The position numbers were made by a program, and so were the translations under genes. This document shows positions 1 through 33,059 of a stretch of DNA of 64,000 nt, piece after piece. The stretch lies in assembly GCA_963682055.1 (NCBI GenBank), contig OY821749.1:25551631-25615630 (forward strand), written 5' to 3'. The notes beneath the pieces were generated by a model. It made no database searches and was not told where the DNA came from. It saw nothing but the letters and a program-made list of their open reading frames with translations. The DNA comes from Primula veris (Eukaryota > Streptophyta > Magnoliopsida > Ericales > Primulaceae). The number at the start of each line of letters is the position of its first letter. Positions within the stretch are counted from its first letter, which is position 1.

Positions 1-3000
1 CTTCTTAGAATTAGTTAGCTCCACACCATTTTTCTTCTTAGTTGCTTCCGTAATGATTATTTTCTTCCAAATCTCAAGTACATCGGTAACTTTTGTTTGA
101 ATCTTCTTTTCCGGATGCTTTGTGAGAGGTCTTAGACGTTTAGCCACCTGCAGTTTGACGCCAAATAAGCAAACTTGTGTTAATAGGGAGATACAGATAA
201 ATAAGCCAAGACCCAAGAGTAACGAGTCAGTCCATGAACCAAATGCTAGTCGCTGCATCTGGCAATGGCATCACCAGATTACAGCAATGAAACTTACGAG
301 ATATACAAATACGATAAACACATAACAACATTTTAAAAAAAGTCTCGCAGTTCATGACGATTATTCAGATTATTATTACCCATGACTACTATTCCTATTA
401 GTTTTCAAGTGCGTGCCCATCATGCTGATTTTTATACTTTTCCTGACTTAATGTTAATATCCTTTTACAATACTCGCCATGACTTTGACTCTCTATTTAT
501 TGTAAGAATTATGCTTTCCAGTAAAGTTATTTCATTATTCAGTACCTTTCAAATGTCGCTAGTGCAAATATATGGGCTCTACAAGCAATTATATTCCAAA
601 ATGGGAAAATACACATTTGTGATAAATCAAGATTAGTTAAAGCCGAAGTTTTTTTTCCTTCAAAATATCAGCACCAAGGTTTGAAAAGTCACAAGACGAG
701 GTTGAGGCGTAAGTCGGACCTGCCTAGACTACTTTTTATGTACTTAGGTTCTTCTAGTGTCTAGACACTAAAACCGGTTTTAAAACACTGGACTACAAGC
801 ACCTAATGGACTGATCATGGTCGCAGTAATAAAACTTGTAATACAAAGACAACATGACGAGGTCTCAGGTTGAACACTATGAATCCTCAAATAGGTAGTA
901 TCCGATTACTGACAAAGTACCTCAATTGTGTTCTCTCGTTTTTGGTGTACAATGAGTAATAGTTTGTCAGCTATTCTGATTACCAATATACAGGTTCAGC
1001 ATATTTTCCATACTCGGGTTACATAACACAAAATGTGAAAGAAAAGCATTGCCAGACTCGATATTAACCATCCAGTAAATCAAGAAATGTAAAAATTAGA
1101 ATGCGATCAATTCCGGTGAAAAATAATGATAACTAGCTGGTGTTCATCTAGTTGGTGTTCTTCCCCTCTTCTTAAGTTCTATAACATCAAAACCCAGTCT
1201 TTTAATCTGACTTAAAAAGTTCTCAGTCATAATTAATCAAACAATCATGTAAATCATCAATAGAACCTAACTGCAATCAAGAAGCAGAGTAGTTACGTAT
1301 ACAAAATGCAACACAGGTATGCAATCATATCAAGACAGATTTTTGTCTCGTCATAAAGGAGATTAACTTCACATCGAACACCATAAGTTCGTTACAAAAA
1401 TCGACCCTCTATACTTAATTGTTAACGAGGAACACTGGGATGATGACTCTGAAAGGCATAGAAGATAAGCTTCCAACAGAAGCTACAATGATTATCCAAA
1501 TCACAATCAACACGAATAAATGCATGGGCATGTAGAGACTTGCCCGTGAATTAGAGACCTAGAAGAGGTAGCAATAAAGTTTGAAACTTTATTACGAGCT
1601 AAAATGAAAATAGCGGATTGCAAAGATGAAGCAACAATTTTACTGTAATATACACCAATTTAACAGCTTCTCAACCAAGTAAATAACTTAAAAAGGGTAA
1701 AAATTGACTAAATTGCCTTGGGATTAAGAACCAAAAAAGAGATAAGTGACATTTAAAACTCATTTCTAAACTGAAGTATAAGAAATTGACGAAATATAAC
1801 AGCTGAAAGGCAATACATTTAAAACTTATTGCAAAAAGAGATGAGTCACATTTGGAACTTATTCCTATAATGAAGTAAAAGAAAGACACACTGTATAACA
1901 GCTTTAAAAAAGCACAAAAATATCACCCAAAAAAATTTATCGAATCGAGATCAGCAGACAAGCCGTAACTTAATACTCAAGCGGACAAAAAATACATGCA
2001 GTGGAGTAACCTTAAAAAGATAGAATTGCTTGAAAATACATGAACTTGATTGCAATAATTTGACTTGAAAGAAAACACACGCAATGAATTGACTTGGAAA
2101 CAGAAATGAAAAAATAATACTAAAATAGCCATAGGTTTGAGAAAAAAACAGCGATAGTACTATTTGAAACCTAATTTTAAACTGAACTAAAATAACAAAA
2201 TACAGCCTGAAAGGGAAGTTATTAATTTCACCAAAAAGAAATCATAGAATCGAGATTCGCATAAAATTGTAATTTGTCACTCTGTCGGAAAAGGAAAAAC
2301 ACATGTGCTGGATTACCTTAAAACGACAGGTTTGACTTGAAAACACATGAATTTGATAAGCAGGAACAGGGTAATCAACTATCCCATTTGAGGAAGTCAG
2401 ACAAAGCAAGGCATAGTCAAGAAAAGATAAGTTTCCAAAAGAAAAGACACACGGCAACTTTTTCTCAATGTGGGGGGAACTGAGAACCTAATAATTTATA
2501 CTTCATCGGAAGAAGAAGATGTACAGGAAGGATACTATCAAACAGTTATTTTTTTAAAATACAAATCATGAATTGCATATACCTAAAAGAGACAATTGAC
2601 CATTCCAGCCTTTAATGAAGGAAACAAGAAACGTTAAGGCCACTAACAAGCATTAAAGAGAAGACTGGCAGAAGAAAACACAGAACTTGAAACATATTCA
2701 TTTGGCAGGAAAAAAAAGAACAAGCAACGAATTACCTATAGGATAGGTTTAAGAAAAAACATTAACAAGAAAAGCAGACCACTTGAAACAAACATGGGTA
2801 TTAAAGACTTACCTTTAAAAGGAAAAGAAGAAAACATGAACTTATTTCTCGCAGGATACGGAAAACAAGAGAGAAAAAACACCAAAAGCATCATGAATTT
2901 GAACTTAATAAGAGGCACCCAGCATAGAAAAAATGAGGCATGAGAGAGATACTCCCAATAGGAAAACACAATGAATTACGTCACCATAGAGACAGTGAGA

Positions 3001-4077
3001 CACTTGAGGAAAAATAAGGTAATGAGAAATGCATGAAAGAGATAACTTATACTCAATACACAGAGATACTTAACTGCGAAAAACTGTGAGCACAAACAGC
3101 AGGGAACAGATAAATATTATTCCAAGAATCGTGAAATTGACAAAAAATGCACAGCACACAGATAAGGAAAAAAATAAAGGAAAAAATGCATACACGAGAT
3201 AACTTTGAGAGGAATGGGATTTGATACCCCAACGTCGCAGTTAAAAAATAAAAGCAAGGGCGACATGATCATAGAAGAGACTATGTTAAATGGAAAACAA
3301 AATGAAATTTGATACCCATATAATAGGCAAATATATAAAGAAATCATTAAGGCCAGAAGAAGACATAAAAGAGACGGCTTACACAGGAAAACTATTTGAT
3401 TTAATAAATATAAGAAGCACTTAAATAAAGAAAACGACAAGGCTATAAATAGGCATAAACAAGACGACCGTATCAGATGAAAAATTAAGTATTAAATCCC
3501 TACAAGATACTTAGGCTGAGTGACAAATAGAGTAAAACTACAGCATATATACCGTAACTAGGATTCTTGTATCGAAAGGCTCAACTTCAAGTGCACATTA
3601 TTTTTCTTATTATGCGGGACTAAAGTTTAAAATCAACAATACTTTTTTAAACTACATGGTAAAAAATCGGTTTTTCCTTAATATGCAGGGCCTACACCCC
3701 CTTCTAGATAAGATATTGTACATTTACAAGTAACGATACATGCACACTTAGAATTCTTTGGTAAAACAAGCTCAAAGCATGATATGAATGCAAGAGCATG
3801 CAAAAAGATAGTATCTTTAGCAATTTACACTAAGAATGACTTGCCGAAAAAAAACACACTAAGAATGATAAATTGAAGGAAATTCTGATAAAAACAATTG
3901 AAGAAATAATGTGACCTGAGTGGACACTAGAACATCATAAGTAACTGGGAAACCCTTTAGCTGATTAAGGGCATCAACGCAACGATCGACTTTCGGCCCA
4001 CCGCTGTCACCGTCCACGGCCGCGGCATCCGCTGCCTTTTTTGCCGCCTCGAACAGCTCCACCAAATCTCTCTCCAT
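1..4077 (-). CDS. Transcription elongation factor TFIIS, N-terminal part (5' end of gene, runs off window)
   Basis: TFIIS binds stalled RNA polymerase II in the nucleus and stimulates cleavage of backtracked RNA. Two coding exons are visible on the minus strand. Exon 1 is 4077-3916, 54 codons starting MERDLVELFEAAKKAADAAA and ending in VSTQ. Exon 2 is 147-1, 49 codons starting VAKRLRPLTKHPEKK and containing VLEIWKK. They join in phase 0, with donor CAG|GTCACA and acceptor CTGCAG|GTGGCT. Together they form the TFIIS N-terminal (LW) helical domain, including the Leu-Trp motif. From family knowledge, the acidic start followed by KKAADAAA is typical of plant TFIIS; Mediator 26 or IWS1-like LW proteins fit less well. 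The central domain and C-terminal zinc ribbon, which carries the catalytic acidic pair, must lie left of base 1 and are not seen. The start is the only ATG that gives the family N-terminus. Confidence 0.9.
148..3915 (-). other. Large intron 1 of the TFIIS gene
   Basis: This 3768-bp GT-AG intron separates the two visible TFIIS exons. It is AT-rich. Several minus-strand ORFs of 70-107 codons lie in it, but they are rich in Phe, Leu and Ser and resemble no family; they are read as chance ORFs. I see no transposon ends in it. Short A-rich purine stretches with loosely repeated words such as gaaaacacatgaa recur from about 2030 to 3100. Confidence 0.8.
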
Positions 4078-4380
4078 ACCCCTTCTCTCGCCTATTCCGT
4101 CCGAAATCTGAAAATATCTGTGTTAAAAAGCTGGCTACATAGTGAAAAGGCTTGATTCACAGCTTAAAAAATCCACTTTTCTTCTTTTTAGGCCGCTAAA
4201 AGCTCACTTTTTGAGCTTTTAGCGTAGCTCTTGCAAAAACGTTTTAGTTAAGTTTCCGCTTTTTAAAACACTAAAAACTATAGTAATAAAGATTGAAGCC
4301 CACAAGAATTTTTTTTTGGAGAATTTGGGTTTTTTTTATTTTTTATAATTACCTTAAAATTCGGTAAAATTAGTCAAAAT

Positions 4381-5170
4381 TCACAGCAAGAAAACAAAAA
4401 TAAGAGAAATTGGTGTATGTATATTTTATTGATGGGTTAACTTCTCCTAGGAAATCAAGTAACAAATAACAAAACCCAGTTGGAGAAATTGGTGTATGTA
4501 TACTTAATAGTTACCTTATATTTTTTGCAAATAGCAAATTAGATCAAACCCCACAATAAAAAATTATACAAAGTGGTGTATGTATATTTAATAGTAATCT
4601 GATGATAAAAAATTTACCCTAAAAAATAAAAGCAAGTTAGAACAAAACCCACAATAAGAATAAAAAAAATTTGGACAAATTGGTATATGTATATTTTATG
4701 CTAGTTACCTTACATTAAGGAAAATCAGATCAATACCCACAATAAAATAAAATAAAAAGTTAAGAAATATGTCAATTTTATACTTACCTTCAAATTTTAT
4801 AACAAATCTTAAAAATACTACAATAAGAAAACAAAAATCGTAGAAAGTATTAAAAATTTAAAAGCTACCTAAAAAATTGTAACAAATCAGAACTAAAAAA
4901 AAACACAATATTGATGAAACTTGCAGGGTATTTAATAAATACTACCTTTTAATAATAGTTGCCCTAAAAATTAATAGCAAATTAGAGCAAACCCCACAAT
5001 AGGAAGTAAAATAATAGTCAAATTGGTGTATGAATATTTTATAAATTACCTTACATTAAGTCAAATTAGATTAATACCTACAAATTTATTGGAAAAAAAA
5101 AACTAACAATAAGATAACAAATAATAGAGAAATTTGCGTGGGTATAAGATAACTAATACCTTTTAAAATA
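4381..5170. repeat. Degenerate tandem array upstream of TFIIS
   Basis: About six to seven diverged units of roughly 80-110 bp share the words ttggtgtatgtatatttta, gttacctta and accccacaataa. Anchor words occur near 4411, 4490, 4572, 4680, 5024 and, weakly, 5130. The array lies about 300 bp upstream of the TFIIS start codon, so it may overlap its promoter. No coding potential is seen. Confidence 0.6.
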
Positions 5171-20534: not shown

Positions 20535-21434
20535 CATGTACATTATCATCCTACTTTACATAATTAAACCCCAGTTTGATCGGTCTATGTCAGAGAGCTT
20601 CTCCCGTCAGCTTTGGATTTCAGTAGTAAATATTTATATTGTTCTATTTGTATGTTGCACTTTTCTTGTTTTATAATACGTAAATGATGACTATCATATA
20701 TCTTGTTTTTACCATTTATGAATAAAGTGATTTGCTACTTCGTTAATTTGTCTTGTTCTTATTTTCTTGGCAGGCCATATAGCAAGACATACACATTAGG
20801 GAAAATATATGTTTGGAAATAAGTAGATTGAGCTCGGGAGTTAAGATGGCATCAGGGAAAGAAAAGTAGTCCAGATCCGCAAAATGAAGATGTATTTGAG
20901 ATCGCTGTTGAGTGGATGGAAAGAGGTGTATATAAATGAAGTATTTTTCTTCTTTTGGTGAAATTGTGGGATTTCACTTATTGAGAGGAAAATAACTTTT
21001 GGGTGAGTTTGTTACTGCTTATTCCCAGGGTACTTAAATATTTTTTGACCCACTGTTGAAAGTTAAGTTACTAAGTACCACTTTTACCTTTAAGCAATAC
21101 CAAACTCACCCTTGGTAGATAGCATGTTGGAAAAGGATCAACACTGGGGTTGACATCATGTTAATTTGAGAGATCGTCTTTTGTAGAAAAAACCCGGAAA
21201 CATAAATCATAAGAGTAATATCATGTAAAGGCTGGTTATTTTTTTCTTACTGAGAGGACTTTACAGAATATATATGAATCAAGTCCATTGTCTGTCTTTC
21301 TTCTATTCAGCTTTCAGTTATTTTAGTCTAACGTTCTTCAACATAGTTAGATGTTATGCCGACCCAGTATATCGGAATGCCTAAAGCTTGATTTTTTCTT
21401 TTTCGATAAATACAAATCAAAATAAAAACAAAAG
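20535..21434 (+). other. 3' UTR of the P4-ATPase gene and intergenic DNA
   Basis: Non-coding sequence after the TGA. An acceptor-like ttcttggcag|gccata at about 20774 suggests a possible 3' UTR intron. No other gene is seen before the LTR element. Confidence 0.45.
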
Positions 21435-21512
21435 TAAATTGTAACTTACGAGTTTCAACACATTGTAAACCAATCTCCTTTACCATTTGAATTATTGCAA
21501 CAAATTGTAAAC
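21435..21512. repeat. 78-bp direct repeat of host DNA, left copy, flanking the LTR element
   Basis: Starts aaattg after gt and ends gcaacaaattgtaaac, directly before the left LTR. It is repeated without a difference at 28291-28368 directly after the right LTR. This is far longer than the 5 bp that copia integrases normally leave. Confidence 0.9.
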
Positions 21513-21716
21513 TGTTGTGAGATTATTGGACTCTTGGGCTTATAATTTATGGGCCCAAGTTGGGCTTGTAACCCTACCCCTCTATCTATATAAAGAGGGC
21601 TAGGAGTCTTGTATTTGACATTCATTCACATATTCCTTCATTAATAAAGATCATGTTGTTCTCCCCTCTCTCTACTTCTGTCTCCCTATATACGTAGCTA
21701 ATAGTGTATTACAACA
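21513..21716 (+). repeat. Left LTR, complete
   Basis: 204 bp with inverted termini TGTTGT...ACAACA. Contains tctatataaagag (TATA-like, near 21587) and aataaag (poly(A)-type, near 21644), as expected for an LTR promoter and terminator. A 7-bp inverted repeat, cttgggc/gcccaag, lies near its start. Confidence 0.92.
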
Positions 21717-21718
21717 CG

Positions 21719-21728
21719 TTATCAGCAC
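21719..21728 (+). other. Primer-binding site
   Basis: ttatcagcac lies two bases after the LTR end. It resembles the tatcagagc/tatcagcac sites that copia elements use with a tRNA or half-tRNA primer. The tRNA itself is not determined. Confidence 0.65.
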
Positions 21729-22369
21729 TTTGCTCGCGGAGACTACGATATACGCTCGCGGATATGAGAGATTTTTGTTAAACGCACGGATATTAGGTAT
21801 CTATAAACCTTGAGGTTTATCCGGGTTTTAGGGTTTATTACTATATCGACCTTCATCAAAATAGCAGAAGTACGGTAAACAGTTTATTCACTGTAGAAAA
21901 TTGATGCTCACATATTTTGCTACTGCATGAACATATAGTAAATTACACTACTGGTTTACCATGAACATATTTTGCTCACTGGTTTTCTCATCATAGACTT
22001 AATAAATACTGCAGTTTATTCACGGCACGAATGCTACTGCTCAATAATAACTCTTAGACTAATATGATGGTTTACCATAAATTACACTATCCTGCAGTAT
22101 ATCCCTAAGTACAAAATAGTATAATGTTATATTTTGTCTGATATATGGTCAACACATGCTATCTTTGCAACCTATCTGATAATGTAATTTGGTAATTACT
22201 ATTAAATTAAAATTTGTTTTCCCTGCATGTGATATGGTAAAATAATAATTAAAATTTGCCCTCCCTGCATGTGATATGGTAAATTAGTAATTAAATATAC
22301 TGCACCATTGCATGTTGTAATTACACGCATGGTCCTGTAGTATAATACTTATACGAAAACAGTACATAT

Positions 22370-22558
22370 GGATTGATTGATAATCTTAAATAGATTTGAT
22401 TTGATATGTTAGAATCTTCATGGATTGATTGATAATCTTAAATAAATTTGATTTGATATGTTAGAATCTTCATGAATTGATTGATAATCTTAAATAGATT
22501 TGATTTGATATGTTAGAATCTTTATAGATTGATTGATAATCTTAAATTGATTTGTTTA
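22370..22558 (+). repeat. 52-bp tandem repeat, 3.6 copies, in the element leader
   Basis: Units start at 22370, 22422, 22474 and 22526 with a constant 52-bp period. Each begins gattgattgataatctta and contains atttgatttgatatgtt. The first three differ at only a few positions; the last is partial. It lies between the PBS and the gag remnant. Confidence 0.9.
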
Positions 22559-23394
22559 TAACACCAAATCTACTGCATGATTAGATACCTAAAATATATT
22601 TACTGCATGTTTATATATATATGGTTAATATAGACAGGTACAATCTATATTTAATTTATTGCCATGTTTATGATATGATAATTTGCGAAATCATATATTT
22701 TCACATTTAAGTTGGAAAAATTATGAACCTTCCCCAACTAGGCTCACCTATTTGGATACGATGTCTAGGAAAGATATAGGCGGAAGTCGATATCCTAATG
22801 AGGTCGGGTTTTAAGTGGCATTCGTGCCCTCCGCCCTCACCGTCTTTCCTGGTCGTTTTTCAAGTAGAGCTACCGAAAGGGGTTGACTAAATAATAATTT
22901 CCCCGAGTGTGTTTATATAGTGATGTATGTTTCGCCGAATTGGTGTCTCTGTATCGACCTGTCGTTCGATCAATGAGAACCTATTCACATTACAAGCAAA
23001 ACTATTTTTCGAACCTGTCGTTTCGAAATAAAGTTTATGATTGTGCAAACCATAAACATATAAACCAGTCGTTTTATATGATAAATAATCCAGAACTCCC
23101 AACACATGTTGGATGCCATCTATGATGAGAAAAATCGTAAAAACATACTTGCGAAATGACTGTTTAAACGTTGATTTTAATCCGTCACCACATGTTACTC
23201 ACCCTGATGTGTGAAAATGTGATGCCCAAATTTTTTTTGGATGCCATCTTTGATGAGTAAAACACGAGTTTGTTGTTACTCACCCTCGAGATGAATGCTA
23301 AGGCGTTGATTTTATTCCGCCGCCACATTTGAGACGCGATGACGTCTATGGTGAACAAATGTCTGAAATTGACATATTGGAGCTATCCTTCACC

Positions 23395-23560
23395 AAAATA
23401 CTATCTTGGAAATTGTATTCCATAAGCAGTATCGTGAATTTATATTCACCATATTCCTTTATCGCCCATCTGTTATTGGATAAAAAAAATTACCCCGGTG
23501 AGTAGTTTTAATCCTATTGGGTCAATGGCAAATTGTTTGCCTGATATTAATGCTCTTCGT
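23395..23560 (+). pseudogene. Copia gag remnant
   Basis: The DNA reads like the part of copia gag that encodes a QQYREF-type segment (cagtatcgtgaattt), an AHLLL-type segment (gcccatctgttattgg) and a PTGS..LPDINA-type segment (NPIGSM and LPDINA are readable at 23507-23551). Frames are broken between these pieces. An extra palindrome, GGCAAA-TTG-TTTGCC, sits inside the last segment at 23527-23541. Assignment is by family memory, not by alignment. Confidence 0.6.
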
Positions 23561-25009
23561 GTATATTTTTTTTCACGAATCGAGAACCGAGACAAGTGTT
23601 ATTTGCCTCGAACTGTCGCGATCCCGATGAATCGCCTAGCCAAGCGAGATTTTAGACAATCGTCAAAATCGAAAACCTGTGGCTCCAAGACAGTAATTGA
23701 AAGGAACAATATGACACGTTATCACAAAGCAAGATATAATGCTCAAGGAGCCAACTCTATGCTATAAAGACAAAGGTCATGCACGGTTACTCCTTAAATA
23801 GTTCACAACTATTATAAAGGTGGAAAAACCGATGCTAATGTGGTTAAAGTTAATTGAAAGGAAACTATTGAGACCCCCGATTTTGTGGCTCAAATGAGTT
23901 TGATACCTTTCTTTATTGATTTTGATAAATCATTGAGCCATTTTTTCGCTCATCTGGATTATGTTTTTCCATTTGGATTATGATTTTTTCCATTTGGACA
24001 TACTTTTGGATAATGGTTTGCCTGTTTATGAAATTTCTCGAAATAATTTAAAGTGTTTTGAGCAAATTCCTTTGACAAATGTGACCAAACTTTAAATTAT
24101 GAAATTTTAGGCAATACTTGTGGTGTAGTTGGTTTTTTAGAAATAGTGGGTAACAGTGTACCACATAATTTCACCAACTATTTGCCTAAAAGAGTACTCA
24201 GTGACAACGATTCTGGACCTGTCGTTCCAAATCGAAATCTTTGGTAAAACCAAATTGATTTGTCAAGTATGAGGTCTTATACTCATGTAGGTCCTGCCGT
24301 ACCTTGTTGAGTTATAAAATATTCGAGAAAACCAGTGTTACCTGTTAATAGCTCATGAAATAATTAAATTTCTTTACATAGCCTCCATTCAATACGATCA
24401 AAAACGTATTTTTAGAGGAGTTGGAATGTCTTTCAAGTGGTTGCTATCACATTCTTTAAAGCGTTTAAAGTTTCCTTATCATTTCGCCTGTCGTCGAATG
24501 ATAAAGAATTTAAATGCTAAGACATGATTGTCTTTACTATCATTCGCCTGTCGTCGATTGATAAGAGCATTTTGATATTGTGGCATTGACCGGATTAGAT
24601 ATTCCCGGGTCAAAAGACGATGCTTGATTTATAATCGCATCGCATTTGGATTCTCTTTGAGGATATATTTCGTGATTAATCCGAAATTCATGCCACTAAT
24701 GCTCACTTTGAAAGACTAGTATGTGTAAAGATCACGAAATGAACTCGTAGAATTCTTGTAAAGAATTGAAGGAGTTATTGTGGACTTATCCAACCATAAG
24801 ACGGACCATAAATATAAATGGTTATGGTTGATGCATCGACAATATGGTCACATTTTAATGTTGTCCACATAAATGCAGCATTTTCCAAACTTTTAGCCCT
24901 ATCATTAAGTTGATGGCTCATGATCCGGATTATCCTGAAAAGTCTAGCCGACTTGATAATTCCGAAGAGTAATAATCGAAATTTCGATTTGAATTACTTG
25001 AGTTTGGAA

Positions 25010-25241
25010 ATTGAAATTGAACATCCTGTCGATTATGTTCAGACCCAAATGGACTCACGGAAAGTTTGATGATGCGACTGCAAATGATTGCACGCATTTC
25101 TTGGTCTTGCGCACCAAGATTTATATTTCCGTATGGGGTTATGCTATTTTGCTGCATTGGTCTGTTATGAGGCCCATAGACACTCAAACACCATATGCGT
25201 ACCAGCTGGTTACTGGTTATGAGCCAGAAGTCTCATATTAA
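25010..25241 (+). pseudogene. Copia integrase C-terminal remnant
   Basis: A short open frame (25011-25241) reads VWGYAILLH, then QLVTGYEPEVSY. It resembles the W-GHAILHA and LVTG-EP-ISH motifs that end the copia integrase region. The catalytic D-D-E part is not recognisable upstream. Two hairpins lie just before it (24968-24998 and 25018-25041). Confidence 0.65.
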
Positions 25242-26749
25242 CGCGTGTTTAAAGTGATTAATTAATATTTTGATTGAGCCGCTCTAGCGTTCAAAATATG
25301 GACCTCTGAAGGGGACATAAGTCGATTATGAATCTCCTGCCTATCATTTGATAGAGTAACCTTGGCAAGCGATCTCTTTACCGCATGATATGCGAAAGTG
25401 ACATCGCTAAGACTGTTCTCCCCGTCGTTAGGGGGAGATTTGCACGTTACCGTTGATAAGGAACGACGTGAAGTAACGTGGCATAACTCACTCAGTCTTA
25501 GCTTGATCCCAAAACTGCACTTAGTGATAAGTAAGTGCATAGACTCCCTCAAGTCTAACTAAATGCCAGACGCATTTAATGACTTTATGAGATGTCACGA
25601 GATCATTTATACCTGCTGCAAAATGCTTGCAAGGATAGACGTCCCTGTCGGACGCCGTGTTCCTGTCGTAACACGTTGCTTTGGCCGAACCCGCCAAGCA
25701 AAGGACGCTGTCGTCGGCCGTCAGTCTGTCGTCCTTCCCAAGATATGAGGAAGTTGACCGGTTCTTAATTCGTTCAGCCCCAGAGGTGGTGAACTGAAAC
25801 TCGTTTGTTGCACGAGATTATAAAGGATCAAGGAGATGTGTGATTTCCTCCTCATCCTAAGAATCTCGAAATATCTGTCGATCATGATATCTTAGACGAT
25901 ATTGAAGCGAAACGAGACTGTCATTGATTACTTGTTCATATATTCGGTGACGACTGATAATATGAACAAATTATGACAGAGAACCATGTACCGTTGCCTG
26001 AAGTCAACGGAGAATAGACTGTACTAATGGAAACTTGCAATCCAAGTAGACTCCTTAGCGAAAGTGTGTTCGGACCTGTAGTTCCAACACCACCAATGTT
26101 AAACGAGTTCGTTTATTTGGTTATTCGTAAGGAAAAGTGATGAGAATAATGAGATTGTAGAATGCTCGCCTAGTAGCGCAAGGCTTCTCTCACACCTTGG
26201 AATTGATTACGAGATGGTTGATTTACTCGTAATGGACATTATAACAGTCCCCTACTTTACCAGTTTAGTAGTTTCCGAAAAACTGAGTATGCAGCCATGA
26301 ATGTGGTCACAGTTTTATCTCTATGGGGATTTAGACAAAGCGATATAGATGAAGGTCCCTGTGTGACTTCATAATGCTTAAATCAAGTAGTTTCTGACCA
26401 CGGAACACGATCTCAATTGACTGAGACGTTCACTATATGGATTAATATAATCCGAGCGGATGTGGTATACCGCCTAAGTGAGTACTTGATTAGCTTGGGA
26501 TACTTGAACAAGTATTATGCCCTTGCGTGTTTTATTACGCGATCCATTTTTGGATTTGCCTTCGAGATGAAGGATATTGGGAAGACACGGTAGTGACTCA
26601 ACCTGATGATTGAGTCCCGTAAATATTGAATCTAAGTCCATGATTCAGACTACACCCAGAAGGTGTTATGACGTTTTAGTCATCATGACGCTAAGTCGTC
26701 AGATTCTCCCATGATCGTTCGATCACTAGACATTGATATAGACCCAGTC

Positions 26750-27353
26750 CGTCCCTGATGAGACGATGAAGAGATATTGAACCATAATGTTCATATCTAA
26801 GTACAATAAGCGCATCATTGTACTTGGTCTAATGTGCTAGGACGAACATCTCGTCTGTTGTGAATGGTATAGCTCGACACAACATCGCGCTAACACGCTG
26901 CCATCGAAATCGCACTAAAAACACATTCCCTTACCTTATGGTAATTTTGGAAGTGGGCTAGTTTATCCCATTTGCGTCATCGAGTGTACCTACCCCCTTC
27001 GGTACTCGAATTAACGCAACCCTTTTTCGGTTATACCGATGCCGGTTACTTATCAGACCCGCATAAGGGATATTCCTAACATGGTATGTCTTTACCATTA
27101 GGAATAAGGCGACATCTTGGAGGTCTTGGAATGACTCCAAGTGAATCACTCTGATCTATTCGTGCTCTATGAGACGACTAGAGAGTGTATATGGCTTCGA
27201 GCTAGTATTAGCCATATTTTAATTACATATGTTCTGTCTCACGATCCAGATAAAACACTTGTCATAGAAGACAACTTGTTGTTATTGATCAAGAGAGACA
27301 TGACTACATTATGCTATTTAGCATTTCTCGCCGAAATTAATCTTCACAAATGA
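26750..27353 (+). pseudogene. Copia reverse transcriptase end and RNase H remnant
   Basis: The DNA follows the copia order. A DEEI...PYLSAIGALLYLAQ-type stretch lies at 26765-26830. DAGYLSDPHKG is readable at about 27038-27070. Then LYETTRECIWLR and a VIEDN motif (27165-27290) resemble the RNase H ALYEA-RECVWLR and YEDN. Stops and frame changes separate them. Several departures from the usual copia sequence fall exactly where they complete an inverted repeat, for example 26772-26798 and 27071-27106. Confidence 0.7.
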
Positions 27354-27360
27354 AGTTTAA

Positions 27361-27602
27361 GAGCATCCAGTTGAATGCTCGTTCTATTCCACATTAGATT
27401 TTCTTGCATCCAGTCGTATGTAAGTAAATGAGGCATCCAGTCGAATGCTCGTACTCTTTCTTGGAATATGAAATCTTTGCACCCAGTCGTGTGCAAGTGA
27501 GGGGGAGCATCCAGGTGAATGCTTATTGCACTAATTACCACTTAGTCGAAATCTTCGCACCCTGTCGTGTGCAAGTGAGGGGGAGCATCCAGTCGCATGC
27601 TC
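27361..27602 (+). repeat. Tandem array of seven CCAGTCG-loop hairpins
   Basis: Hairpins at 27361-27380, 27403-27424, 27433-27448, 27477-27496, 27506-27523, 27557-27572 and 27583-27602. Stems alternate between GCAT..ATGC and GCAC..GTGC types, each with an 8-nt loop (CCAGTTGA, CCAGTCGT, CCAGTCGA, CCAGTCGT, CCAGGTGA, CCTGTCGT, CCAGTCGC). Pairs repeat with a period of about 75-78 bp. Stem changes between copies are paired. Confidence 0.88.
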
Positions 27603-28098
27603 GTGTACTCTTTTTGTCCTTAGACCAAGGTTTTTTCCCACTGGGTTTTCCTTGGCAAGGTTTTTAGCGAGACACGTTCCCATTATATCTCACTTAAGAT
27701 TGCCGAAATTAGGGGGAGTATCCTGTTGTATACTTCTTACCACTGTGTACTCTTTTGTCCTTCGACTAGAGGTTTTTCCCACTGGGTTTACTCTAGCAAG
27801 GTTTTGATGAGGCACCTGTTTTGTGGTTGATCCCTACGACTACCATTGTTGCACTCTTTTTCCTTCGACTAGAGATTTTCCCATTGGGTTTGCTCTGGCA
27901 AGGTTTTGATGAGGCACACTGTTTTGTGGTTAGTTACTTACATGATATTTCGGCATATATCATTCGGCTACACAGTTTCTCCTAGGTACCGGTTTTGTCC
28001 CACACTGGGTTTTCCGGCCCTAAGGTTTTTATGTGTTTAGCACTGCGAATGAACTCGACTCAGATCGACTGCATGAAGACGAAGAATTCAAGACGTCC

Positions 28099-28108
28099 AA
28101 AGGGGGAG
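28099..28108 (+). other. Polypurine tract
   Basis: aaagggggag lies immediately before the right LTR start TGTTGTGAG at 28109. This is the usual plus-strand priming site and fixes the element on the plus strand. Confidence 0.88.
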
Positions 28109-28290
28109 TGTTGTGAGATTATTGGACTCTTGGGCTTATACTTTATGGGCCCAAGTTGGGCTTGTAACCCTACCCCTCTATCTATATAAAGAGGGCTAGG
28201 AGTCTTGTATTTGACATTCATTCACATATTCCTTCATTAATAAAGATCATGTTGTTCTCCCCTCTCTCTACTTCTGTCTCCCTATATACG
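28109..28290 (+). repeat. Right LTR, 3' truncated
   Basis: 182 bp, matching left-LTR bases 21513-21694 with one substitution. The last 22 bp (21695-21716 in the left copy, including the ACAACA terminus) are missing. Host direct repeat starts directly after tatatacg. Confidence 0.92.
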
Positions 28291-28368
28291 TAAATTGTAA
28301 CTTACGAGTTTCAACACATTGTAAACCAATCTCCTTTACCATTTGAATTATTGCAACAAATTGTAAAC
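28291..28368. repeat. 78-bp direct repeat of host DNA, right copy
   Basis: Matches 21435-21512 at every position compared by eye and continues into unique DNA (caatttgtg). With the left copy it brackets the LTR element. Confidence 0.9.
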
Positions 28369-29580
28369 CAATTTGTGTTTAATACTTTTATTTTAACTAC
28401 TCAGTATATTAAAAATATAGTCGAATGTTGTCCGTAATTTTTTTTCCGGATCAATTGTTCAAGGCTCAAAACTTACTCGATTTGGGCCTAGGCCGTCCTG
28501 TTTATATGTGATTTGTTGTATTATGAATGGCTCTAGCCCTTGATATATTTGAACGAGGAAGGCAGGCAGGCACGTTTTGCATATTTGTTTCCAAAATATT
28601 TTTCATTTGTGACAGTATAGACCTTAGCTAGTGTTTGTACTTTGTCCTATCACATAAAAACAAGACATGAACTTGGTTATATACACAACATGAGAAACGT
28701 ATATTATAACATTGAGTTTTGAAAAGGCATGCACGTAGACATTGTACATAGGTGGAGATCGATCGGTCTGAAGCAGCAACGTTCATAGGAAATCTAATTA
28801 AGGGGCCGGCCGGTCCGGTAGTTTTTTGTGTTCTTTGCTGCTTTGCCTGATTCTTGTTAAAGGAAAAACTCGAATTAAATGATGACATATTGGCATGTAT
28901 ACGTGTGTTGTAAATGATTTTTGTTGGCCAATTTTTCTATAATCGAGTACGTAAGAGTAAGACTTCAATTATCTTACCAGTAATCAATCTAATTGCAGTG
29001 GTGCTGTATTAAATATAATGAATTGGTCTATCTTGTATGCTATGTAACCTTGAATTTGTTTGTGATTAAATTTTGTATACTCTATTGGTCTCTAAATAAG
29101 TATGCTATTTTGTAAATTGGGTTTAAAACTTTAAACAATTTCAACTACAATTTAACAAAAAGGAATCAAAAGATCAAAATTGTCAAACAAAAACTAATTC
29201 TTAATTACAAAGCGAGAGAATAAATAAGTGTAAATTTAATATTTTTTTAACTGCCAAAAAATGATATTTCAAAAACCAAATAAGAGAAATATTATTTAAA
29301 AAATTGGCACTTGGTTCACCCAAAAACATGACACTGAGTATTGTATTTACATTAAAACCGCTATAAATTAATAATGTTGGGACCGTAGAAATTTATTAAT
29401 TTAGAGATGTATTAGTTAATTGATAAATTAATAATAATTATTTTAAAGAGGTTTTATTGATTGAACGATTAATGTTCACCGAACGATAATAACAAATTAT
29501 TTTTTACACTGTAAAATTTGTTCGGTCAATGAAGTTTCAATTAACAGATAAAACTACTATTGAGAAATATATTTATGAAT
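28369..29580. other. Intergenic DNA, nothing recognised
   Basis: AT-rich sequence. The 86-codon minus-strand ORF at 28628-28888 has no family features. Confidence 0.5.
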
Positions 29581-29581
29581 T

Positions 29582-29724
29582 TGAAAAAAATAATTGATGG
29601 TCTCGGTTATCTCAATAAAACATATGTTAATGAGTTGTTAGATTAACCAGGTGAAAAAAATAATTGATGGTCTCGGTTATCTCAATAAAACAGTTGTTAA
29701 TGAGTTGTTAGATTAACCAGGTGA
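29582..29724. repeat. 70-bp tandem duplication
   Basis: tgaaaaaaataattgatgg and the following bases recur with a 70-bp shift (29582 and 29652), nearly identical (catatgtt against cagttgtt). A recent slip or repair duplication. Confidence 0.85.
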
Positions 29725-29734
29725 AAATGATATG

Positions 29735-30690
29735 TGCAATTAACAAAAACATACCATACCCCTATTATATTAACAAAAATATACCATAATAATTTAAATT
29801 ATCAAAAACATACCTATATAAACTTATTATTTCTCTAATTCTAATCAGATCATAATCTAACATCTCTCTCTAACCGTAACTCTCTCTCTAATCGCACATT
29901 TCTCTTTCTAACACACGATAATCGCACATTTTTCTAACACGTGCTAATCACTCATCTCTCTATCTAAAAATAACTAAAAACTCACAAAATATTCATATGC
30001 TAATTATAAAACGTCATACCCTAATTTTAAAATTTCATACCCTAAATGTTCTGGATCACAATTAAATATCTAAAAAAGAGTTCATACCCTAATTTTAAAA
30101 TTTCATACCCTAATTTCAAAACTTCATACCCTAATTTTAAAAATTTATACCATAATTTTAAAATTTCATATCATAATTTTAAAACTTCATACCCTACATA
30201 TGAATTTATCTCAATAATGTACATATGAATTCTCATCTTTCAACTTGAAACACACAATGTTTACAATAATCTCAAATCTCAATAAATAGAAAATAATCTC
30301 ACAAATTTCATATAGTTTTCATATATTACGGAGTATCAACCAGTGTAATATTTGTGTATTACATATATATATATATATATTTATATGTATATGGATGTTT
30401 ATATAATTTAGATGTTATTCAGTAGTCAGTGACGGGTTTTCGTGGTGGATGGGGGAGAGATATGGAATGGTATATGAAAGAAAGAGACAGAGAATAACGA
30501 AGGAGACAGAGAGTAAGATCAGAGACATGATACAGAGAAAATTTTGGTGAGAGAGAGAAGAATGGAGGAGAGAGAAAGAAGAGAATAAACATCATTTAAT
30601 TTGTTTGGTATTTTTTTGATAATGAAAAGTTTTTGGGTATGTTTTTGTTAATTTAGTTTAAAAAGTATTATGTTTTGTTAATTTATCCAA
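29735..30690. mobile_element. Non-autonomous element with GA-rich core, copy 2
   Basis: Starts aattaacaaaaacatacc and ends with the complement (gggtatgtttttgttaattt, then ttttgttaatttatcc). The inside has a run of ttcataccctaattttaaaa repeats (30010-30200), an (at)n stretch near 30365 and a purine-rich gagaga core (30470-30590). Same family as 5838-6540. The 60-codon ORF at 30046-30228 is repeat translation. Confidence 0.65.
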
Positions 30691-33059
30691 AAAGAAAGGG
30701 GCATGATGAGATTCAAATAAATTTAAATTTTAAGAAAATATAAACGACTATACAATCATACTTCACTAAGTTGTTTTAGTAATTTTTGTCATTTTAAAGA
30801 ATTATTAATTTATGATTTTTTCGAGACCAATATTTATATAACAGTTTTTAAAAAATTTATTATCTTGTTAATTTACCGAAATTACTGATTTTTTATATTG
30901 AATCAAGTCGGGATCTGAAAAAATTATTATTTTAGATAGTTTATTAATATAACGACTATTAATTTAGAATGGTTGCACTGTATGGATATGATAGGGTCAC
31001 ACACGATGCAGCTAATTAACGCTAAAATAAGATAAAACCAAGCAAATGTGTATTATGCTGAATGTTCCTATCCATATTTGCCAAAACTGATAACGAACAA
31101 TAATGTTAATGAGTCAGATAGAGTCAATTAATCTCTCAACACACCAGTAAATTTAGAATTTTATTTTCACCCCGAAATCTAAGAGTATGCTATTCGGCCA
31201 TATATTTAATATTTTTAATTAATATTTAAGTTTACGATAGTTTCAAATAGGGTTATATAATATTATATTTGAGTTTTTAGTTTGTTGAATCGTCAAATAA
31301 AATATATTAAAATTATTAAAATTTTAAATATTTTAAATTATTATTTAAGTTTATGGTAGTCTCAACTAGGGTTCCATAAATATTATATTTGAGGTTTTAT
31401 TTTGCTGAATAGTTAAATAAAATATATTAAAATCATTAAAATTTTAAATATTTTACATTAATATTTAAGTTTATAGTAGTATTAACTATGGTTGCATAAA
31501 TATTATATTTGGGGTTTTATTTTTGTTTTGGTTGAGTGTCAAAAGAATTCTAAAAATTATATAAATGACTGTCTGATAATCAGTCCGATTGAACCAGTCT
31601 GATTGAACCAGTCTATCTCTATATTGTTAATGGTCTATTATCAAGTGTGAACACTTGCCATGTGAACTCATTAGCAAGTGTGAACACCTGATCTCCTTGC
31701 CATGTGCACTCATGACCCTTTAATTAATAACATTTAATATAACTCGGGTATTTATGTGGATATGTCTAAGAATAGGTAAATCACCTATCCTTTTTTACCC
31801 GGTAGTTTTGGGTATGCGTATGTGTAATTTAGTAGTACTAAAAAGACTTGTTTATTTGTGGGATTGAAATAAGGCATCGTATTTATACAATCGGTATAAT
31901 CTCTATAAGTTGTAGAATTCACAAATATAAGAGCATCGGCCTCAATCAACTCCTATGAAAATTGAGAACTAATCTTAACAATATTGTTCAATGTTCAGAT
32001 CATGAGTATGACTGAGCATAATTTTGAGTTTGACGTCTCTTCAGATCAATAAACAACTATTGACGTGGGACTTTAATATCATAAATATTGTATATGTAAT
32101 TCTTTTTTATTTTATTTTGTTGGACTTCTAGGTGAGGTGAACATAGTCTTATCGTGTTCGGTTATGGTAATAAAGAGTCATAAATTTATGTTCATGTTTG
32201 ATTCATTTATAGACATGTAAATTAACATATAAAAAATATCATAAATAGAGGAACCGAATCCAAGTTTTTTCATGATCTGTGTGTAGTTCATTTGCAGGCT
32301 AGGTTATATACATAGTCATTACTAGAAACCAAAAAATAGAAATGGCAGTTCACAAGAACAATTTACGGATTTAAATAAAATATCTTCTGAATCTAACCAT
32401 CATACTAGTAAGTAGTTGAGAAATATAAGATCACCCATTTAATAACATGTGGACTTTTAAATTGTAAACCCTTGTTTAATTGTCTTATTGGGATAATTAA
32501 ACACCTACATGATCCCGATTATTTATTTTACCTATTATCTAGCCAACTTAATATAAAAGGCCAGGGGGTAATTTTATTCGCCATGTGAACGGGTTAAATT
32601 AATAGAATGTCAAAGGGTAAAAAGGATGACGTATTTCTTTTGTTGAAATAAAGTAGAAATTATTTGATGTATCATGCATCTACAAAACGTTAAATATTTA
32701 TTGTAAATTATTTAATGTGTCCATCTAGTAGGCCCGTAGTCATAACTTCTAAGTTTTGAAGATTTGACAAATCTTTTTTCAAATGGCCAATTTCTGTGGT
32801 ATTGGGATAAGTTAGATTATCTATATATAAATAAAGTTCCCATCACCGTACCATACTATGAAGTAATTTTTTCTTTCTTGTAGGAAAATATTAATAAATA
32901 TATTACAGTTTGAAAACGGGAGAAACAAATTAAAGAGAGAATACATTTATTGTTTATTTTACAGGGTTTTATACTTTTTGATATACCAAATTTGAGTACC
33001 TATTTTTCAATTTGGCTACCACACTCGATTTAGGTACTACACTAAAAGAAGCTTTTTAA
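30691..33059. other. Intergenic DNA with a 120-bp tandem repeat
   Basis: At about 31210-31530 a 120-bp unit containing tatttaagttta, gggtt, cataaatattatatttg and aaatattttaaat recurs about 2.6 times (starts near 31221, 31341 and 31461). Nothing else is recognised. Confidence 0.6.

Follow-up and report, generated by a model that had tools for sequence, protein, structure and literature searches.

A copia-derived retrotransposon family of Primula veris with a chain of short hairpins and a recurring loop in its apparently non-coding core

The window analysed here, 64,000 nucleotides of Primula veris DNA (assembly GCA_963682055.1, contig OY821749.1, positions 25,551,631 to 25,615,630 of the forward strand; position 1 is its first letter), carries an element with a total length of 6.8 kb, which is best read as a young, multi-copy, non-autonomous long terminal repeat (LTR) retrotransposon of Ty1/copia descent resembling the large retrotransposon derivatives (LARDs). 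Its core is far richer in short perfect hairpins than shuffled sequence, and one octamer loop recurs on many of the differing stems of the plus strand. The pattern of changes among the genomic copies suggests, as far as sequence comparison can tell, that folding is kept by selection, and we incline, if only just, to the view that folding of the sense RNA into a hairpin chain is maintained in an element mobilised in trans.

Hairpin density and a recurring loop

From its letters alone, the stretch at 22953-27602 had been described as holding more than 35 perfect stems of at least 6 bp where about a dozen were expected, and both figures were right. Counting perfect stems with loops of 3-13 nucleotides against 60 dinucleotide shuffles, we found 44 stems of at least 6 bp compared with 12.3±3.3 (shuffle maximum 22), 18 of at least 7 bp (3.3 in shuffles), six of at least 8 bp (0.8) and one of at least 9 bp (0.3), a density far above that of shuffled sequence. 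A perfect stem reaches 10 bp if a larger loop is allowed, and the nested stems 25918-25924/25973-25979 around 25932-25941/25960-25969 read as claimed. Complementary stretches in the core are most frequent at short distance, with 44 at loop lengths of 3-13, 29 at 14-24 and 12.8-23 per 11 loop lengths thereafter. Direct repeats in the core have no comparable peak at short distance, and the same distance control detected no enrichment of short loops in two host coding stretches of the window. When folded in 120-nt windows, the core gave a mean z of -1.13 on the plus and -1.66 on the minus strand. The difference from the flanks (about 0), which the sequence-only reading had proposed to look for on the plus strand, is present on both strands; the LTR and leader (-0.42 on the plus strand) are also low on the minus strand (-1.34).

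The claim that this density is confined to the interior holds for most of the window but is too strong, as some copia frames of the genome equal it (see below). Among eight comparison stretches in the window, the leader (21697-22952) is mildly high, with 10 stems versus 5.6±2.4, positions 1-4650 contain three stems of at least 9 bp where 0.2 are expected, and the flank at 28293-32942 lies clearly above its own shuffles (48 versus 29.2); the rest are at expectation. This flank is AT-rich with many tandem repeats, which probably explain its excess. The unit that is kept among copies extends beyond the limits 22953-27602 and spans from about 22700 to 28108.

It had also been stated that the stems share no single sequence. 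The stems do differ, but a loop with the consensus CCWGNNGW recurs on the plus strand. In the form CCWGTCGT, it is found 10 times on the plus strand of the element; the whole window has 12 such octamers, against 0.99 expected, and eight of the 10 plus-strand sites are closed by at least four Watson-Crick pairs. When all octamers starting with CCWG on the plus strand of 22700-27800 are considered, 19 of 42 are closed by at least 4 bp, compared with one of 343 on the minus strand of this region and both strands of both flanks, and none of 59 in 21 copia reverse transcriptase (RT) stretches of the genome. Although not required, G is found at position 7 in all 19 closed loops, and still in 12 of 12 when the 3' cluster with its tandem duplicates is set aside; T or A follows at position 8 in 18 of 19, which gives the consensus in sense orientation. 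The hexamer CTGTCG was counted 12 times on the plus strand of 22700-27360 versus 0.72 expected, and not once on the minus strand. In every one of 30 copies, the core contains 7-11 exact CCWGTCGT sites, at least four pairs close 5-9 of these, and the sequence upstream of the core has none. No common loop sequence was noticed in stems with other loop lengths, and the shared-loop hairpin is absent from the pieces L054, L057 and L058; among the pieces checked for it, the array is seen solely in this family. A protein that reads the loop would be expected to leave such a trace, one loop on many differing stems. Kissing of loops with an exact complement was discarded, since the element has no CCWGTCGT complement; likenesses to the loop of iron-responsive elements or to the assembly loop of tobacco mosaic virus were also considered and dropped. 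The chain and its hairpins are located as follows:

22953..27602, + strand: hairpin chain, 44 perfect stems of at least 6 bp
22953..22970, + strand: shared-loop hairpin, 5 bp, loop CCTGTCGT (CCCGTCGT in at least 9 of 29 copies)
23007..23028, + strand: shared-loop hairpin, 7 bp, loop CCTGTCGT
23057..23080, + strand: shared-loop hairpin, 8 bp, loop CCAGTCGT
23199..23214, + strand: shared-loop hairpin, 4 bp, loop CCTGATGT
24214..24229, + strand: shared-loop hairpin, 4 bp, loop CCTGTCGT
24289..24304, + strand: shared-loop hairpin, 4 bp, loop CCTGCCGT
24476..24504, + strand: shared-loop hairpin, 8-bp stem 24476-24483/24497-24504, alternatively 4 bp around CCTGTCGT (24483-24498)
25218..25237, + strand: shared-loop hairpin, 6 bp, loop CCAGAAGT, the same in all 29 copies
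25656..25675, + strand: shared-loop hairpin, 6 bp, loop CCTGTCGT
25918..25979, + strand: nested stems 25918-25924/25973-25979 and 25932-25941/25960-25969
25991..26010, + strand: shared-loop hairpin, 6 bp in the window copy (outermost pair missing in 27 of 29), loop CCTGAAGT
26595..26616, + strand: shared-loop hairpin, 7 bp, loop CCTGATGA; compensated pair in one copy
26750..26765, + strand: shared-loop hairpin, 4 bp, loop CCTGATGA
26799..26825, + strand: longest perfect stem of the chain (loop 3-13), 9 bp, loop of 9, without the shared loop
27361..27602, + strand: cluster of shared-loop hairpins, loops at 27367, 27437, 27483, 27511, 27561 and 27589; partly a 78-bp tandem duplication
27717..27734, + strand: shared-loop hairpin of the 3' tail, 5 bp (9 counting G-U), loop CCTGTTGT

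Family copies, anatomy and coding content

A search of the plant's own 436-Mb genome with the 4.65-kb query returned at least 32 matches over the whole query at 97-100% identity, the window copy included; 32 of the 3638 first-look candidates were scored, one match ends 2 bases early and two of the 32 are without a locus. In the 29 other copies, the LTRs and the 5' leader are strongly unlike those of the window copy, whereas the region from about 22700 to 28108 is nearly constant, and the border near 22700 is sharp. Two copies, L009 and L010, lie in tandem (G000:C10:17851113-17862219), apparently with one common LTR and with identical cores; L009 was omitted from the copy-comparison, loop, stem-change and reading-frame counts. 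Of 30 copies, 23 have a recognisable LTR pair of their own; 11 of these pairs are 100% identical over the available part, with several pairs cut by the end of the locus and two of the 11 belonging to L009 and L010. A 5-bp target duplication could be read by eye in nine of 11 rows (L007, L012, L013, L020, L021, L029, L031, L033 and L034). The 12 letters at 21717-21728, which we take to be the primer-binding site from what is known of copia elements, directly follow the LTR in nine of 11 printed copies, are one base off in L033 and are missing in L034. Paired LTRs, 5-bp target duplication, primer-binding site and a presumed polypurine tract at the end of the 3' tail are all features of copia descent; features of the primer-binding site and the tail suggest a possible affiliation with the Ale lineage. 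The parts of the element are:

21513..21716, + strand: 5' LTR (TGTTGT...ACAACA), end placed by alignment with other copies
21717..21728, + strand: presumed primer-binding-site region
21729..22690, + strand: 5' leader, variable among copies and outside the conserved unit
22700..28108, + strand: conserved core without a long reading frame, common to copies with differing LTRs, housing the hairpin chain
26118..26713, + strand: broken copia RT remnant, in more than one frame
27603..28108, + strand: 3' tail with degenerate direct repeats and the presumed polypurine tract at its end
28109..28292, + strand: 3' LTR, about 20 bp short at its 3' end in the window copy

In the window copy, positions 21513-21696 match the 3' LTR at 99.5%, the final 20 bp of the 5' LTR are unique to the 5' end, and the leader carries a 52-bp tandem repeat (22368-22554). 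Unusually, directly repeated sequence of about 79 bp (21434-21512 and 28290-28368) lies on either side of this copy in place of a 5-bp duplication; together with the shortened 3' LTR, this perhaps reflects capture at a break rather than ordinary integration. Genes for a lipid flippase and a malectin-type receptor kinase were recognised by eye among its neighbours.

The description of the interior as a remodelled copia element is borne out by the RT remnant, to which the genome's copia RT proteins align as two ordered pieces in 15 of 21 cases (best scores 39.3 bits at 29.5% and 34.7 bits at 40.4% identity; overall range 21-40%). This alignment used permissive settings, and matches outside the expected region were not counted; a single RT protein by itself matches the core with an E value of 0.12 only. 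Seven reading-frame pieces scanned against Pfam produced weak non-copia matches but none to copia, and a protein search with a 65-amino acid piece gave no candidate. None of the 29 cores has an ATG frame longer than 135 amino acids; the longest one measures 129 or 135 amino acids in 15 of the 29 core copies and 92 in the other 14. In the 11 ATG frames of at least 50 amino acids in the window core, where counts are small, a third-position excess of shared changes that would point to a hidden coding function was not evident. By these sequence searches, the former pol region appears to code for nothing detectable. Rfam returned no match up to E 1 over 21513-28292. Pattern scans of IMG/VR for the primer-binding site and the tail motif led to five contigs (L001-L005), which were taken as unrelated to the element; the frames of L001 looked phage-like by eye, and one of the 38 frames of the five contigs matched the element (29 amino acids, 41%, E 0.002).

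Taken together, the many recent near-identical copies, their LTR pairs and the lack of a long frame indicate a recently moving, apparently non-coding copia derivative and not a decayed insertion, and recent copies that appear to be non-coding imply mobilisation in trans. The hairpin-rich form is thus the one that replicates. The CpG observed/expected ratio of 22700-27360 is 1.06 and that of the upstream flank 0.70, which fits a young insertion.

The core does not share the history of the LTRs that enclose it. Distances were compared for 351 pairs among 27 of the 30 copies (L018, L023 and L028 have no polypurine anchor). The median pairwise difference is 18% for the 3' LTR, but 3.2, 3.0 and 0.9% for three core segments, and the correlation with LTR distance is 0.39, 0.16 and 0.07 for these segments compared with 0.60 for the adjoining 3' tail. 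In 140 pairs the LTRs are more than 20% apart, and 84 of these differ by less than 1% in 25251-27602; the converse, LTRs within 2% but more than 3% difference in 22720-25250, also occurs. The simplest reading of these sequence distances is that the core has moved among LTR lineages by recombination, presumably during reverse transcription. Changes present in at least two copies thin out from 5' to 3' along 22700-28100, with 8-27 per 200-bp bin before 24900 and 1-11 after it; those found in a single copy number 8-23.

Changes among copies and explanations of the hairpins

Changes shared by at least two copies should stem mostly from the replication phase, and changes private to one copy mostly from the time after insertion. 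Pairs of local stems (at least 5 bp) were compared with pairs in equally perfect distant stems. When the window copy serves as reference, shared changes that break a pair affect 23 of 664 local pairs but 331 of 4052 far pairs (nominal p 5e-6), whereas private breaking changes are equally frequent in both (62 local, 411 far; p 0.58). The local rate is below the far rate with each of the 29 real copies as reference, the means being 3.94 and 8.13%. Counted by site, shared changes hit 14 of 535 local stem sites versus 72 of 1322 sites in eight long-range control sets (p 0.007), and private changes are similar (38 local, 85 control). Compensated double changes are few, with four to one uncompensated in local stems and 12 to eight in far ones (window reference).

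Several observations weigh against the reading that the sense RNA is kept folded. The copies are related and the references overlap, so that all p-values are nominal, and with stems of at least 6 bp and L035 as reference, one of four printed, the pair test is not significant (p 0.15). When stems are pooled over all copies, the contrast of the site test weakens (46 of 951 versus 38 of 518; all sites, 256 of 4921). Shared changes that keep a pair as G-U are also fewer in local stems (13 versus 140, p 0.044, window reference; mean over references 2.02% local and 3.23% far), which means that protection is not a matter of pairing alone. G-U pairs ought to be tolerated by selection on sense RNA, and yet stems with one G-T are not in excess (at 7 bp, 9 versus 6.8, and 11 versus 11.2), whereas stems with one A-C, equivalent to G-U on the minus strand, are (20 versus 10.1±2.7), as are those with other single mismatches (90 versus 46.4). 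In addition, the minus strand folds slightly better than the plus strand (-1.66 versus -1.13), and the shared loop is not clearly conserved, with shared changes at seven of 104 loop sites and 181 of 3003 other sites.

Comparison with other copia elements of the genome, which the sequence-only reading had named as a check, gave a split answer. The 21 copia RT stretches, several of which are near-identical, contain 45 stems of at least 6 bp in total against 66.6 expected, which indicates that richness in hairpins is not the rule for ordinary copia genes. We also counted stems of at least 6 bp in 2-kb copia pieces against 50 synonymous codon shuffles. No excess was found in L061, L062 and L063 and no clear one in L059 and L066. 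In contrast, L058, L067, L068 and L069, which form one lineage, have 14-17 stems versus 3.8-4.8, L060 has 23 versus 7.2 and L064 has 17 versus 8.0, numbers reached by none of the 50 shuffles in each case and about as dense as the core; L065, with 11 versus 6.3, is equalled by three of 50. Except for L059 and L066, the tested pieces lie in predicted open frames of 1025-1542 amino acids. The RT stretches of these elements differ: those of L058 (L054; 10 versus 1.7) and L060 (L051; 7 versus 3.4) are stem-rich, and those of L064 (L044; 1 versus 3.0) and L065 (L045; 0 versus 1.8) are stem-poor. Mean sense z ranges from -0.65 to -1.03 in L058, L067, L060 and L064, with similar values on the other strand, and is -0.52, -0.19 and -0.10 in L061-L063. 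Among the four copies of the L058 lineage, a change in a local stem preserved the pair as G-U 18 times and broke it 11 times, compared with 26 to 62 in far stems; these cells depend on one another, and L067, one of the four references, shows the opposite. L061, without an excess of perfect stems, has 13 stems with one G-T versus 2.8 at 7 bp.

Of the three explanations offered at the outset, the structured RNA genome is best supported, namely by the scarcity of pair-breaking shared changes, but the G-U and loop-conservation results count against it. In the mechanism that we propose, the former pol region would have turned into short perfect hairpins that follow one another along the sense RNA, proteins would be supplied in trans by an autonomous copia element, and selection would act on this RNA as it is packaged or replicated. 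Hairpins with the CCWGNNGW loop could be repeated binding sites for a loop-reading protein and would thereby make a good passenger RNA. Such an RNA has to be taken up by particles that another copia element makes, and for this reason the partner's Gag is the first candidate for this protein, though with considerable doubt. In PMC8396678, Ty1 Gag is described as preferring its own structured RNA in competition, with the stems of a 5' pseudoknot suggested as primary sites; Gag is there otherwise of low specificity, and the comparison lends the Gag step weak support. The Ty1 and retroviral packaging signals lie at the 5' end, unlike the chain of this family, which extends over the interior. More broadly, and slightly more speculatively still, the genomic RNAs of several copia lineages might be selected for chains of perfect local hairpins, even within open frames by way of codon choice. 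The interior of one non-autonomous family could then have become a portable module, in which about twenty hairpins with variable stems and one octamer loop would act as a many-site handle for the partner's Gag, and which would spread by jumping between LTR lineages during reverse transcription.

The stems could instead be the product of mutation. When reverse transcription switches strands (quasipalindrome correction), perfect inverted copies of neighbouring sequence would be written into elements that replicate often, and hairpins would build up where coding permits. This agrees with perfect Watson-Crick stems being the most enriched class while G-U is not in excess, with the excess at short loops that direct repeats lack, and with several copia lineages being affected. 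However, it explains neither the recurring plus-strand loop nor the deficit of pair-breaking shared changes, and some long open frames match the density of the core, although most such mutations would harm a protein. We consider it unlikely as the whole account and retain the inverted copying proposed by the sequence-only reading as a possible origin of the stems; both processes may act, with copying errors making stems and selection keeping them. Slightly less probable, in our view, is a general RNA architecture of some copia transcripts, in which hairpins would shield the genomic RNA from host surveillance or compact it and the shared loops would be a family-specific addition. The coding pieces of three lineages that exceed synonymous shuffles (the L058 group, L060 and L064) and the G-U pairing kept in local stems of the L058 lineage speak for it. 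It has to contend with the pieces L061-L063, which have no excess, the stem-poor RT stretches L044 and L045, the modest sense z that is similar on the other strand, the non-independent G-U cells and the opposite result of L067.

A transcript with many short duplexes might also be a source or decoy of small RNAs, but the recurring loop would then have no role, and stems of 6-9 bp are far shorter than the precursors of miRNAs or hairpin siRNAs; we regard this as highly improbable. As the flank at 28293-32942 also exceeds its shuffles, shuffling misses local composition to some extent. Chance or a composition artefact is nevertheless judged refuted by the distance control in the same sequence, the synonymous shuffles of coding relatives and the recurring loop.

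Returning to the folded sense RNA, the choice of RNA could be tested directly in this family, which offers about twenty natural loop-and-stem variants, dozens of recent copies and an exchangeable core. If hairpin chains are general in certain lineages of copia, retrotransposon coding sequences would be under selection for RNA folding, which codon-based analysis ignores.

Comparison with known systems

To our knowledge, it is poorly understood how plant LTR retrotransposon RNA is chosen for packaging and how non-coding elements continue to move. The nearest known kind are the LARDs, such as Sukkula of barley and Dasheng of rice, which have a long, non-coding interior conserved among copies and are mobilised in trans. 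LARDs are generally known as gypsy-type elements with long LTRs, and the barley LARD is said, in a 2004 paper in Genetics, to have a well-conserved RNA structure. The element described here has LARD features in its apparently non-coding interior, its length and the conservation of its interior among copies, and a conserved RNA secondary structure is indicated by the copy comparison, with the above reservations. PMC4558846 defines LARDs as longer than 4 kb and counts Dasheng among them. At 6.8 kb, our element exceeds the limit of less than 4 kb for terminal-repeat retrotransposons in miniature (TRIMs), and this class was rejected. The Ale-type TRIM families AACA3 and AACA4 of pear are likewise non-coding with a primer-binding site like that of Ale copia elements, and their internal regions measure 1641-2042 bp, according to PMC5659011; the word 'hairpin' occurs 0 times in that paper. 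For the wheat RLC_Angela subfamilies, differing trees of LTR and internal domain are reported and cross-mobilisation is discussed in PMC9744471, in which 'secondary structure' occurs 0 times. Ordered RNA structure at genome scale is also pervasive in RNA viruses, as far as the matches listed in our search tell, and none of those listed concerned plant retrotransposons. A copia element with a chain of shared-loop hairpins was not found in the literature searched at title and abstract level, with subscription papers mostly outside it.

The window family differs from LARDs in that it is copia-type, has LTRs of about 0.2 kb, retains a pol remnant reshaped into hairpins, carries an array of octamer loops and has its core under different LTRs. 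Judged from sequence, what appears to be new with respect to LARDs is this combination of copia descent, short LTRs, a reshaped pol region, a shared-loop array and a core that switches between LTRs.

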